From Haliovirga abyssi (GTDB lineage: Bacteria > Fusobacteriota > Fusobacteriia > Fusobacteriales > Haliovirgaceae), in NCBI RefSeq assembly GCF_030295325.1, contig NZ_AP027059.1, forward strand, positions 2,290,637-2,354,636: 64,000 bases of DNA. The letters run 5' to 3'. This document shows, piece by piece, positions 8,796 through 16,703 of the stretch (position 1 is the first letter of the stretch; every line of letters starts with the position of its first letter). The notes beneath the pieces were generated by a model. That model saw only the letters and a list, made by a program, of their open reading frames with translations. It did no database searches and was not told the DNA's origin. The position numbers and the translations under genes are program-made.

Positions 8796-8811
8796 ATAAA
8801 AACAGATTAAC

Positions 8812-8920
8812 ACCATTATTATATTTGAAGGTGTCCGCTAAGTTTATCCCATTCATACACAAGTAAAAATGATTTTGACATGGTCTCAGAATTTTCAATA
8901 CCTCTTTATTGGGTTCACTT
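8812..8920 (-). mobile_element. Fragment of a group II intron, domain I region
   Basis: The 90 bases 8831-8920 align without gaps to 15251-15340 of the ORF-less intron, with about 15 mismatches by hand count. They include the identical blocks AGTTTATCCCATTCATACA and GGGTTCACTT. The adjoining CCATTATTATATTTGAA (8812-8828) matches 15020-15036 of the same intron, so the fragment also carries an internal deletion. No domain V is seen here, so this is an inactive relic. Confidence 0.7.
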
Positions 8921-12171: not shown

Positions 12172-12210
12172 TTTCCTTTATTCGTGTCCTATTTATAAAT
12201 ATTCGTGGCT
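12172..12210. repeat. ATTCGTG-type repeat
   Basis: CTTTATTCGTGTCCTATTTA then TAAATATTCGTGGCTA is a member of the AACCACGAAT...CACGAAT repeat type also seen at 33718 and 35850. It abuts the end of rfbC. Confidence 0.5.
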
Positions 12211-12787
12211 AAAATTCTACTCCACTTTCAACAAACTCTCTAAATGTTTGTAATTTCATATCTTTTTCTGACAAACTTAGTTCTTCTTCTTTTATTCCAT
12301 ACTTCTCTAATTCCCAATCTATTCCTACCTCTTTATCATTCCATACTATTCCACTATCATATTCCGGTGCATAATAATCTGTACATTTATATTGAAATTC
12401 TGTATTATCTTCTAATGTTATAAATCCATGAGCGAATCCCTCTGGTACATAAAACATCCTTTTATTTCCTGCTGTTAATAATACACTATCCCATTTCCCA
12501 AATGTTTCACTATCTCTTCTTAAGTCTACTGCTACATCTAATACACTTCCTGCTATTACTCTTACTAATTTCCCTTGTGTATGTTTTGTCTGAAAATGTA
12601 ATCCTCTCAATACTCCTTTTTTAGATTTAGAATGATTATCCTGTACAAATTCCATTGTTAAACCTATTTCTTCAAAATCTCTTTTACTATAACTTTCCAT
12701 AAAAAAACCTCTACTATCTCCAAATATTGTAGATTCAATTATTACTAATCCATCTATCCCTGTTTCTATTTTTTTAAATTTATTCAT
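12209..12787 (-). CDS. rfbC: dTDP-4-dehydrorhamnose 3,5-epimerase
   Basis: A 192-residue cupin-fold RfbC. It epimerises dTDP-4-keto-6-deoxyglucose at C3 and C5, the third step of dTDP-L-rhamnose synthesis. DSRGFFMESYSKRDFEEIG, VQDNHSKSKKGVLRGLHFQ with the catalytic-region histidine, and YVPEGFAHGF are all conserved. A GTG 12 bases upstream lies in the GGAGG ribosome binding site, so ATG 12787 is the likely start. Its expected partner rfbA lies 3 kb upstream beyond two group II introns. rfbB and rfbD are not adjacent. Confidence 0.93.
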   Translation of the reverse strand: MNKFKKIETGIDGLVIIESTIFGDSRGFFMESYSKRDFEEIGLTMEFVQDNHSKSKKGVLRGLHFQTKHTQGKLVRVIAGSVLDVAVDLRRDSETFGKWDSVLLTAGNKRMFYVPEGFAHGFITLEDNTEFQYKCTDYYAPEYDSGIVWNDKEVGIDWELEKYGIKEEELSLSEKDMKLQTFREFVESGVEF

Positions 12788-12844
12788 AAAAACCTCCACT
12801 TGTAATTAAAAATAAAATCTTTTAAAACTTTCAACGCAGAGCCA

Positions 12845-14753
12845 GTAGAGTAAAAGCTGGTAACTGATAACAATTACCAGACAGTCCTCATCAAACCGTA
12901 CGTGAGGTTTTCCCTCATACGGCTTTCCTATAGATTTCATCTCAAGCATTCACAAGTTGTCATTAATAAGCTGTTGGTTCTATTAGTCCATATTTATTCA
13001 CTAATATTTTATATGCTCCTTTGCTATAGAGCTTGCTTGCCCTCTGACTTTTCCTTTTATAGTATCTACTTAACTTTTGAAATAAGTACCACCTTAGATT
13101 TCTCTTTGCTTTATTGGGGTAACTTATCCCTTCTATTGTATGATAATTTATCCAGCCTCTTACCTTCATATTTATATCTATCGATACTATTTCTGGCGGT
13201 AAATGGCCATTGTTTTTCAAATACTCATCTATTTTTTCTCTGATTTTCTTTTCTGATTTTTTACTCGGCACTATATTTAAATATTTTTCTTGTGAATTGT
13301 ATAAACTTTTATCTCTTCTAAATGTAAATCCTAAAAAATCAAAACTTTCATCTCTTATATTCACTTTGTGCGTTTTATCTGTATTTAATTTTAACTCCAT
13401 CTTCTCCAGTATTTCTTTTAATTCCTTTGTTACATCCTCTGGTATTTTCTTCCCCATTAATACAAAGTCATCTGCATATCTTACTATTTTTATTCCATAA
13501 TTCTTAAACTGTTCCAACACTTTTACCATTTTATCTAACATATCTAAATATATATTTGCTAATAATGGCGATATTACTCCTCCTTGTGGGGTTCCTACTT
13601 TGTTTTTCTTACCTCCACTTAAATTATTATCTTCATCTTTTACAGGAGCTTTTAAAAATTTCTTTATTAGTCTTAAAACGTGTTTATCACTTATTCGTCT
13701 TCCTACTAATTTCATCAATTTTGTGTGTGGTATTGTATCAAAATATGAACTTAGGTCTGCATCCAATATCTCCTGCTTTCCTTCTTTTATATTCTTTCTT
13801 ATCTCTTTTATTGCTCCAGAAGCTCCTCTCTTTGGTCTAACTCCATATGAACTCCCTTCAAAATCTGCTTCAAATATTGGCTCTATTACTATTTTACAAG
13901 ACATTTGTACTACTCTATCTCTTATCGTTGGTATTCCCAGTGGTCTAGTCTTTCCATTCCATTTAGGTATATTTACTCTTAATACTGGTGATGGTATATA
14001 GCTCTTTCTTTTTAGGTCATTATGCAGTTCGTCTATAAATTCATTTATTCCTTTAGACTCTATTATTTCAAATGTTTCTCCATCTATTCCAGGACTTCCT
14101 TTTTTCTGTTTCACTCTTATATAGGCTTCATATAGAAATCTCTTTGACATTATTTTATCATACAATATGTAGAATCTATATTCCTTCTCTTGTTTGGCTT
14201 TTTGATATATCTTCTTCTGAAAGTCTCGTATTCTTTTCTCATCTCGCTGTAGCACGCTACTTGAAATAGGTTGCTTTTCTAGGTTATTTTCCAATTTGCA
14301 AATACTCCTTCCTTCTAAAGTTTTTTCTATAGCAATGTTCCTTCGCTTCTCCTGAGTTATGTTGTCTCAGGTATCATCACTACTATGAACATCTCCGACT
14401 TCTTGTTATTCCAATATATCTTTCCAAATTATTCGTTATAATATATTGTTTAGGTAGCTATCCTTAATTAACAAGACCTCTCAAGTTCCCATATTATCCT
14501 TTTATATCCACGCCATTCCTTTTAACCCCGACAGTTCCGCTTTGTTTTGCCATTTATTTTCCAAAGCTGGTGGCAGGTTTCACCCACTCCGAGAGGCTGA
14601 CCAACTGTTACCTTACGGCTTAGATACCTGCTTCTATAGGCTTCATAAATAATGTCGCCATTATTTATGCTATATCTGCTTCTACCTGAAATGGCATAAA
14701 TTAGGTAGGTTGGACTTTCACCAACTAGATAATACAGATTTAGCTTGACGCTC
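12845..14753 (-). mobile_element. Group II intron 1, with maturase gene
   Basis: The element is 1,909 nt. The 5' end reads GAGCGTCAAGC, a variant of GUGYG. Near it, AGTTGGTGAAAGTCCAACC forms a typical domain I hairpin. The 3' end shows domain V (GAAAGCCGTATGAGGG-AAAA-CCTCACGTACGGTTT, with the catalytic AGC), then a domain VI hairpin CTGGTAA/TTACCAG, the likely branch A seven bases from the end, and CTCTAC. The exons join as TTTCTCTGATTCCTCTG plus TGGCTCTGCGTTGA, an uninterrupted CTCTG-type repeat. This supports both boundaries. Confidence 0.85.
12963..14294 (-). CDS. ltrA: Group II intron reverse transcriptase/maturase
   Basis: A 443-residue intron-encoded protein. It contains reverse transcriptase blocks including KWNGKTRPLGIPTIRDRVVQ, the GTPQGGVISPLLANIYLD block and the catalytic YADDFVLM. 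A maturase (X) domain follows, with VRGWINYHTI and a basic C-terminus. No HNH endonuclease domain follows the X domain, so the intron would rely on an endonuclease-independent insertion route. The frame is intact from start to stop. It lies inside domain IV of intron 1 and would promote splicing and mobility. It is not a defence-type RT, since flanking domain I and V/VI structures are present. Confidence 0.95.
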   Translation of the reverse strand: MENNLEKQPISSSVLQRDEKRIRDFQKKIYQKAKQEKEYRFYILYDKIMSKRFLYEAYIRVKQKKGSPGIDGETFEIIESKGINEFIDELHNDLKRKSYIPSPVLRVNIPKWNGKTRPLGIPTIRDRVVQMSCKIVIEPIFEADFEGSSYGVRPKRGASGAIKEIRKNIKEGKQEILDADLSSYFDTIPHTKLMKLVGRRISDKHVLRLIKKFLKAPVKDEDNNLSGGKKNKVGTPQGGVISPLLANIYLDMLDKMVKVLEQFKNYGIKIVRYADDFVLMGKKIPEDVTKELKEILEKMELKLNTDKTHKVNIRDESFDFLGFTFRRDKSLYNSQEKYLNIVPSKKSEKKIREKIDEYLKNNGHLPPEIVSIDINMKVRGWINYHTIEGISYPNKAKRNLRWYLFQKLSRYYKRKSQRASKLYSKGAYKILVNKYGLIEPTAY

Positions 14754-14882
14754 CAGAGGAATCAGAGAAAACCTTTTTCATTAACTCTACTCTTATATCC
14801 TTTATTTTTTCCCTTCCTCTGCGTTCCTCTGATATCTCCGCGACTCTGCGTTGAATCTTTTATATTTTATCTTTACTTTTAT
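14754..14882. repeat. Inverted pair of CTCTGCG-type repeats (intron 1 host site)
   Basis: AGAGGAATCAGAGAAAACC at 14755-14773 is the 5' exon half of the copy split by intron 1. The opposite arm at 14811-14873 (CTTCCTCTGCGTTCCTCTGA, TATCTCCGCGACTCTGCGTT, GAATC) is uninterrupted. The arms face each other, and about 40 AT-rich bases lie between them. Confidence 0.65.
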
Positions 14883-15663
14883 GTCAAGTAGGTAAGAGGA
14901 ATTTCACCTCGAACCTCTCACGGAACCGTACTTGATACTCTCGCATCATACGGATCTTCATATCCTTAAATTCTCACGAATTTTAATATCGTCCTTTCGT
15001 TCCTCTCTTGCGATTGACTCCATTATTATATTTGAATATGTTAGCCCCTTCGCTCCATTATCATTACAATAACTTCTTCACTACTACGAACTAATCCGCC
15101 CCAGATAGAATCATCGCTACTTTCGACCTCGTGGGGTCTCCACTTGTATCTTTTCACTTAGCATTTCCTATCTGGTTCACAAGTTCCATTGAAAAGCCTA
15201 AATTAAAGTCTTGCCCCCTATATACCGTATGCCACTTAGCCAATAAACAGGTGTTCGCTAAGTTTATCCCATTCATACAAAGGTGAGAATGGTTTTGACA
15301 TAATCTCAAAAGTTTCGATACCTCATCGGTGGGTTCACTTCCGTTCAACTCTTTAATTCTTACCTGACATACTTTTGTATGCCTTTTCCCTAACCGTTCA
15401 ACACCATATCCCTTAGAATACAGCACCGTAGGGCGGTTTGAAACCTCCTCCTGTAAAGCGATTTCGGTAGACCTACTACCATCTTTTCAACAGCATTTAC
15501 TCAAAGTTTTCCCTCTTTCTTGTTATCAATTTTAGGTTCAAAGTTCGCTCATCGCTCCTTTGAATAGTATTTTACTATCTTTTCCAATATCAAACTTCTT
15601 GGTAACTTCATTTTATACTCAAGATTTTAGAAAGAAGTTTCACTTCTTTCATTCTTGTCACAC
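14883..15663 (-). mobile_element. Group II intron 2, ORF-less and probably inactive
   Basis: The 781-nt element starts GTGTGACAAGAATG (minus strand) and ends with a domain VI-like GAGGTGAAATTCCTCTTACC, branch A, then CTTGAC. Domain V is clear: GATCCGTATGATGC-GAGA-GTATCAAGTACGGTTC. The canonical catalytic AGC triad reads ATC because of one base (14954), leaving a U-U mismatch where a G-U wobble is normal. Domain IV carries no maturase gene, only about 60 bases. A frame at 15154-15426 is intron RNA, not a protein gene. Confidence 0.82.
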
Positions 15664-15753
15664 CTTTGACTCTTCTTTTCTTTCTTTTTCCTTTGCCATA
15701 ATTATATATATATCTTGTTTTCCTCTTTAAATGGTTTTCAAAATCTTTTTCTT

Positions 15754-15815
15754 GCCTTCCTCTGCGTTCCTCCGATATCTCTGCGACTCTGCGTTGAATC
15801 TTTTATATTTCATTT
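15754..15815. repeat. Direct repeat of the 14811-14873 segment
   Basis: CTTCCTCTGCGTTCCTCCGA, TATCTCTGCGACTCTGCGTT and GAATCTTTTATATTTC differ from 14813-14872 at only a few positions. The two copies are in the same orientation and bracket intron 2. Confidence 0.7.
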
Positions 15816-15839: not shown

Positions 15840-16703
15840 CTACTTTACCAACTCCATTAAATACTTCCCATAATGCGTCTTCATTAGCGATTCAGCTAAT
15901 TCCTCTACTTTTTCTTTACTTATCCATCCATTATTATATGCTATCTCTTCTGGACAAGCTACCATTACTCCTTGCCTTTTCTGTACTGTACTTACAAAGT
16001 TTGCTGCATCTAATAATCCGTCATGTGTTCCCGTATCTAGCCATGCCATTCCACGTCCAAAGCTTATTACATTTAATGTTTCTTCTTTTAAATACATTTC
16101 ATTAAGAGTTGTTATTTCTAATTCTCCTCTTACACTTGGTTTTACTTGTTTTGCTTTTTCTACTACTGTATTATCATAAAAATATAATCCTGGTATTGCA
16201 AAATTTGATTTTGGATTTTCTGGTTTTTCTTCTAATGAAATAGCTTTTCCGTTTTCATCAAATTCTACTACTCCAAAAGATTTTGGATTTTTTACAGGAT
16301 ATCCAAATATAGTAGCACCTTTTTCTCTTTTAGCTGCTTCTCTTACCATTCCTGTAAGCCCATGTCCATAAAATATATTATCTCCAAGTACTAATGCACA
16401 AGCATCATTACCAATGAACTTTTCTCCAATTAAAAATGCTTCTGCAAGACCATTCGGATGTTCTTGTACTTTATATTCAAAATGTACTCCAAAATCTTCT
16501 CCACTACCTAATAATTCCTCAAATACAGGTAAATCTCTAGGAGTAGATATAATTAAAATATCCTTTATCCCTGCAAGCATTAGCACAGATAAAGGATAAT
16601 ATATCATTGGTTTATCGTAAATAGGTGTTATTTGTTTTGATATTGCTTTAGTAACTGGATATAGGCGAGTACCGCTGCCTCCAGCTAAAATAATTCCCTT
16701 CAT
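15840..16703 (-). CDS. rfbA: Glucose-1-phosphate thymidylyltransferase
   Basis: A 287-residue RfbA. It makes dTDP-glucose from dTTP and glucose-1-phosphate, the first step toward dTDP-rhamnose. The nucleotide-binding [19 protein letters not shown], the metal-binding [13 protein letters not shown], and [14 protein letters not shown] are conserved. It has its own extended -10 promoter and is separated from the heptose genes by a terminator-like hairpin. The next gene in the pathway that is present, rfbC, lies beyond two introns. Whether the transcript reaches it depends on intron splicing or readthrough. Confidence 0.95.

Follow-up and report, generated by a model that had tools for sequence, protein, structure and literature searches.

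An ORF-less group II intron with an altered domain V triad in Haliovirga abyssi, probably a splicing-defective relic

Introduction

An AGC or CGC triad in domain V is thought to be common to group II introns and the spliceosomal U6 snRNA, and a natural intron that is active without the middle G would, if genuine, speak directly to the requirements of the active site. Such a case is raised by intron 2 in the window (the whole stretch of 64,000 nucleotides from contig NZ_AP027059.1 of Haliovirga abyssi that was analysed here), which has ATC at the triad position and no maturase gene of its own. Does this RNA still splice, or is it a relic of an intron that once did?

In group II introns the triad is AGC, or CGC in some cases (PMC4424553). 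In Oceanobacillus, the triad, the domain V bulge and J2/3 together build the active-site triple helix (PMC7275048), and domain V mutants are used as splicing-dead controls (PMC4496777, PMC5037169). Bacterial introns that lack an ORF are described as rare and usually occur with a related maturase, C.te.I1 being the sole exception (PMC4424553); in Thermosynechococcus a driver maturase moves ORF-less introns (PMC2882425).

Position, class and ends of the intron

The ends of intron 2 are exact on the minus strand, with GTGTG at the 5′ end (15663) and ...CUUGAC at the 3′ end (14883). In the Rfam search, RF01999 (group-II-D1D4-2) matches 15362-15480 with 99.7 bits (E 2.8e-19; family cut-off 36 bits) and RF00029 matches domains V and VI (14883-14958) with 50.8 bits (cut-off 40). 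The intron has the termini of its kind (5′ GUGYG, 3′ AY) and a bulged A in domain VI, which lies 7 nt from the 3′ end in an otherwise normal domain. A candidate EBS1 is a perfect complement to the final six nucleotides of the 5′ exon (Table 1), but because EBS1-IBS1 pairings show no clear peak by position across the whole class, this pairing is only suggestive.

Table 1. Coordinates of intron 2, its parts and related features in the window
Feature	Position	Strand	Basis or remark
Intron 2, ORF-less group II intron, class RF01999	14883-15663	-	781 nt; RF01999 and RF00029 matches
Domain I-IV core of intron 2	15362-15480	-	RF01999 alignment; every model pair standard
Short domain IV, about 80 nt	14961-15041	-	Sequence around the lost start of the IEP is kept
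Domain V hairpin, GATCCGTATGATGCGAGAGTATCAAGTACGGTTC	14923-14956	-	RF00029 match, fold
Catalytic triad position, ATC not AGC	14953-14955	-	A14955, T14954, C14953
Two-nucleotide domain V bulge, AA not AY (AC/AU)	14932-14933	-	Second departure, overlooked in the earlier note
Domain VI	14883-14921	-	Fold and RF00029 alignment; bulged (branch) A at 14889
Candidate EBS1, CUUUGA	15501-15506	-	Complements the 5′ exon end; weak
Candidate IBS1, UCAAAG	15664-15669	-	5′ exon end; weak
Intron 1, class RF02003	12845-14750	-	RT/maturase ORF 12963-14294; 5′ end approximate; not cognate to intron 2
Relic of a sibling copy of intron 2	8805-8920	-	Intron positions 324-415 (84%) fused to 628-652 (92%)

Two special types of group II intron were considered and set aside. 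A circularly permuted intron (PMC8637638) is ruled out by the standard domain order. Membership of group IIC-attC was considered since relatives are located at CGTTRGG-like sites, but the triad is ATC and not CGC, and the intron has no attC-like flank.

Intron 2 lies between an rfbA-like ORF (15840-16703) and an rfbC-like ORF (12209-12799), both named from sequence motifs and on the same strand as the intron, so neither gene needs its excision. The source genome (2.73 Mb, two contigs, 100% complete) holds a single full copy of it, and the rearranged sibling relic is found 6 kb away. The window contains no empty target site for the intron. A 37-nt repeat (AACGCAGAGTCGCNGAGATATCNGAGGAACGCAGAGG) flanks intron 2 in two minus-strand copies (14816-14852 and 15759-15795). 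Similar GCAGAG-type sequence occurs on both sides of intron 1, near 12830 and 14750, which suggests that intron 1 was placed in a dispersed palindromic repeat.

Domain V and the conservation of the fold

Segment by segment, domain V reads GATCCGTATG ATGC GAGA GTAT CAA GTACGGTTC. The earlier note had described a hairpin of standard shape whose triad is ATC instead of AGC, with loss of the G-U wobble, and both observations hold. The predicted fold and the RF00029 match give the standard shape (with domain VI, -26.5 kcal/mol, z -3.4), and T14954 faces a U, so that a U.U mismatch replaces the G.U wobble and appears as a 1x1 internal loop. With the AA bulge as a second departure, intron 2 has neither the AGC/CGC triad nor the AY bulge expected of a catalytically competent group II intron. 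No compensating change is present in J2/3 (GUAGUAGUGA), which is identical in the relatives of a four-way alignment.

The rest of the RNA is well preserved. Despite about 30% divergence, 104 of the 106 well-supported base pairs (98%) in a class consensus structure that was derived without the sequence of intron 2 form in the intron. Compared with the Vibrio intron L024, 83 substitutions fall at paired sites and break 2 pairs, whereas their random placement would break 43.7 +/- 3.6. Selection has therefore acted on the RNA through most of its history, and its fold was maintained until recently, although a fold this close to perfect could be compatible with continuing function as well.

The missing reading frame and the search for a helper

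That the intron lacks a maturase gene, as had been claimed, is borne out: its largest ORF (15154-15426, 90 aa) is the sole one of at least 80 aa and has no Pfam match. Domain I and domain V are 404 nt apart, compared with about 1610-1640 nt in ORF-bearing relatives. An alignment with ORF-less and ORF-bearing relatives places the domain IV remnant at GTCAATCG..GAGAGGAACGA, the counterpart of GTCAACC..GGGAGGAACTTATG in the introns that carry an IEP. In the absence of an IEP from domain IV, intron 2 resembles the ORF-less type that is mobilised in trans; it differs from that type in that its genome has no related IEP.

The whole genome has four RT loci, none of which encodes a maturase of the RF01999 class. 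Apart from intron 1, an intact intron protein is found at C1:75 kb (class RF02012), and the remaining two loci are degenerate; domains V and VI are of a different type in both, and one has an RF02003 core. The proteins of intron 1 and of the C1:75 kb locus are 33% and 31% identical, respectively, to a maturase of the RF01999 class, and intron 2 therefore has no cognate helper. By pointing to the intron 1 protein as the only local maturase, the earlier note had implied a helper role for it. This is not plausible given the different RNA class (RF02003) and the low identity, and the protein was ruled out as a helper on these grounds.

Relatives and the recurrent loss of the ORF

A search of 97 further genomes from the phylum found no RF01999 intron. 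Other relatives were collected with searches keyed on domain I, which are hence blind to the triad. Within the class that includes a Legionella MAG, 31 of 369 genomes had a match, as did 62 of 396 within the phylum of Galbibacter. Among the matches in which domain V was located, ORF-less copies (spacing of domains I and V about 380-460 nt) were common; in the alignment they account for 21 of 59 structured copies. Plasmid relatives with an RT are present in Megaera, Priestia, Enterococcus and Vibrio, and ORF-less ones in Methylomonas, Neochlamydia and Tenacibaculum; the latter retain the sequence around the lost RT start, after which domain V follows. A tree of 61 introns needs at least 11 changes on branches with good support to account for the ORF-less state, which means that the ORF was lost repeatedly in the class. 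What had seemed a local oddity is thus a feature found across RF01999, as both the tree and the domain spacings indicate.

Intron 2 falls in a tree group of 17 rows (support 98/91) that otherwise comes mostly from Bacteroidota, which suggests horizontal acquisition from a Bacteroidota-like source. Several Bacteroidota members (L027, L201, L214, L223, L205, L215, L225) have CGTTRGG or CGTTGTA 7-9 nt past the intron in their 3′ flanks, similar to the R′ site of attC (GTTRRRY), and these may form a lineage that targets attC although it lies outside group IIC. Twintrons were also seen: the 5′ flanks of the RT-bearing introns L021-L024 and L171 show insertion into the RT genes of other group II introns, at the part that codes for YADD (GCAGATGAY).

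Triad and bulge among the relatives

All 35 ORF-bearing relatives in the domain-I-keyed alignment have AGC, and none ATC; among the 21 ORF-less ones, 18 have AGC. The three exceptions are intron 2 itself (ATC), L028 (ATC) and L020 (AAT), where L028 had entered the alignment through its triad, and L020 and the other plasmid copies through sequence similarity. Departures of any kind, in the triad, its partners or the bulge, affect 12 of 21 ORF-less against 9 of 35 ORF-type copies (Fisher p = 0.025). A G.A pair at the position of the triad G (partners GAT/TAT) is found in 6 of the 35 ORF-type copies, and the RF01999 class seems to tolerate it in place of the canonical G.U. An A is indeed often opposite the triad G in both ORF-bearing and ORF-less introns (L019, L081, L092, L103, L129, L133, L167, L171, L197).

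About 85,000 genomes were scanned for a domain V with a middle triad base other than G, which gave 33 stretches, most of them of the RF01999 class; chosen by the lesion, they are uninformative on its frequency. Viral contigs yielded no non-G triad of the searched form. The ATC triad also occurs in ORF-less relatives of other genomes (L027, L028, L039). A domain V with GATCC is seen in cyanobacterial introns of another class as well (L033, L034, L041, L048; Arthrospira, Anabaenopsis, Chrysosporum), and one Arthrospira genome has two different intron copies of this kind.

The earlier note had proposed a comparison of domain V with other copies of the family in the same genome. This genome has the rearranged fragment alone and no second intact copy, but other genomes supplied the comparison. 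In the Flavobacteriaceae MAG 5_8_m_bin18 (G470, which includes L027), three ORF-less copies have ATC, AGC and AGC, and in G472 and G481 one ATC copy stands beside one with AGC. The genomes with an ATC copy have just one each. AAC is found once beside AGC copies in G469, and twice with one AGC copy in G476. The presence of ATC beside AGC siblings in G470, G472 and G481 makes the G-to-T change look copy-specific, which favours decay. The AA bulge is different: it is found in all three copies of G470 and was thus inherited and tolerated, and it occurs in L025 of Tenacibaculum and in L075 too. That ATC is the inherited trait of one clade is unsupported by the best tree and less likely given the AGC siblings within genomes, although a constraint placing the four tested ATC introns in one clade is not rejected (AU p = 0.19).

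An AAC family in a Legionella MAG

The Legionella MAG LH_M43 has at least seven intron copies of the RF01999 class. All seven detectable domains V have AAC with a G partner (A.G), and no AGC copy was found in this MAG. The interiors of these introns are collapsed in the assembly, so that the copies are known from their ends only (3′ ends L026, L032, L035, L038, L052, L054, L056; 5′ ends L066-L070). Their 3′ flanks differ, three of them starting with a common REP-like repeat and then diverging, and the sites of the five 5′ ends are all unrelated, each end following a REP-like hairpin that closes with ..GGCTA. A maturase-like C-terminus (FVHWAKGF...) is encoded ahead of domain V.

These ends are read most simply as those of an AAC-triad family that has multiplied, and for this the ribozyme would have to be active although the middle G is absent. 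The copies thus suggest that a mobile intron can tolerate variation at the middle base of the triad, and this family is a better lead for a non-canonical triad than intron 2.

Relic or active intron

The earlier note had taken intron 2 for an ORF-less intron with an altered triad that is probably dead, and this fits the evidence best: the triad is ATC, a cognate maturase is lacking, and siblings with AGC exist elsewhere. Intron 2 is thus probably an orphan, splicing-defective relic, an ORF-less derivative of RF01999 acquired from a Bacteroidota-like source. Its history may have started with a non-autonomous ORF-less derivative of the class that arrived by horizontal transfer, as its mostly Bacteroidota nearest relatives would indicate, and that duplicated at least once in this genome. 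Earlier, ORF-less copies could have spliced and retrohomed with a maturase supplied in trans. Now that a maturase of the RF01999 class is absent from the genome and the catalytic G of domain V has mutated to U, splicing in vivo has most likely been lost, and intron 2 would remain between rfbA and rfbC as a relic that does no harm.

Some observations speak against such decay. Copies with the AA bulge have multiplied in G470, so this bulge is not fatal, nor must a triad without the G be, to judge from the multiplication of AAC copies in the Legionella MAG. The note had itself left room for an intron still active with an unusual triad, a lesser alternative that we regard as unlikely. The class would tolerate a change of the middle base, U.U would keep the domain V helix and the geometry of the triple helix, and splicing would proceed independently of protein or with non-cognate help. 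The retention of 98% of the class base pairs is consistent with this, as are the ATC triads of ORF-less introns in other genomes, the related AAC (A.G) family with at least seven copies at distinct sites, the G.A pair in several relatives (ORF-bearing ones included) and a single ATC clade, which the AU test does not reject and which would make ATC an inherited functional state. However, ATC copies are single per genome and have AGC siblings, no ORF-bearing relative has ATC, and J2/3, unchanged in the aligned relatives, shows no compensating change. AGC/CGC is moreover held to be essential, triad mutants serving as splicing-dead controls (PMC4496777, PMC5037169). A wider claim, that the middle triad base is not strictly required in RF01999, joins mobile AAC families (at least seven LH_M43 copies) to an intron 2 able to splice with U.U, and we consider it improbable.

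Partial splicing (e.g. the first step or hydrolysis only), or slow splicing with the intron 1 protein acting in trans, is a decidedly weak candidate. Introns 1 and 2 share a strand in the rfb region, and relaxed ‘driver’ IEPs mobilise ORF-less introns in Thermosynechococcus (PMC2882425), but the known cases in trans concern related introns, whereas intron 1 belongs to another RNA class with an IEP of 33% identity, and the triad lesion hits chemistry, beyond folding. One base is decisive for all of this and is supported by the assembly alone, so ATC might be a sequencing or assembly error for a true G in an ordinary ORF-less copy. This is very improbable for a single-copy locus in a 100% complete assembly of two contigs, as other assemblies have ATC independently and the AA bulge is a further difference.

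Comparison with known systems

As a whole, the survey amounts to a natural mutant panel, with ATC, AAC and ACC triads, G.A pairs and the AA bulge on well-conserved scaffolds; for some of these, the genome also contains siblings with AGC, and for the Legionella AAC family there is evidence of proliferation. ORF-less forms are common and recurrent in RF01999 (21 of 59), beyond what the small earlier surveys in PMC4424553 suggest.

The RT-bearing RF01999 introns, e.g. that of the Vibrio plasmid pVPH2 (L024), share with intron 2 the order of domains I to VI, the architecture of domains V and VI and the domain IV region around the IEP start, and their domain I-III core is up to about 70% identical; intron 2 differs in having no IEP, ATC for AGC and an AA for an AC bulge. 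The introns of 5_8_m_bin18 are ORF-less like intron 2, have the same type of domain VI and, in one copy, ATC with a CAAG domain V core, but two of the three copies have AGC and their flanks are of the CGTTRGG type, a 3′ flank that intron 2 does not have. TeI3 of Thermosynechococcus elongatus (PMC2882425) is likewise non-autonomous, a domain IV deletion having removed the RT and left ORF remnants, but a related driver IEP is available to it, unlike in the genome of intron 2. C.te.I1 of Clostridium tetani (PMC4424553) is also ORF-less in a genome without a related IEP; it self-splices robustly, whereas intron 2 lacks the AGC triad. The inactivated RmInt1 copies of Sinorhizobium meliloti 1021 (PMC4496777) are full-length with single inactivating core substitutions, as intron 2 is, but keep the IEP and near-identical siblings. 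Most likely, intron 2 itself belongs to a known kind, and is better read as a decayed copy than as a new type of ribozyme.
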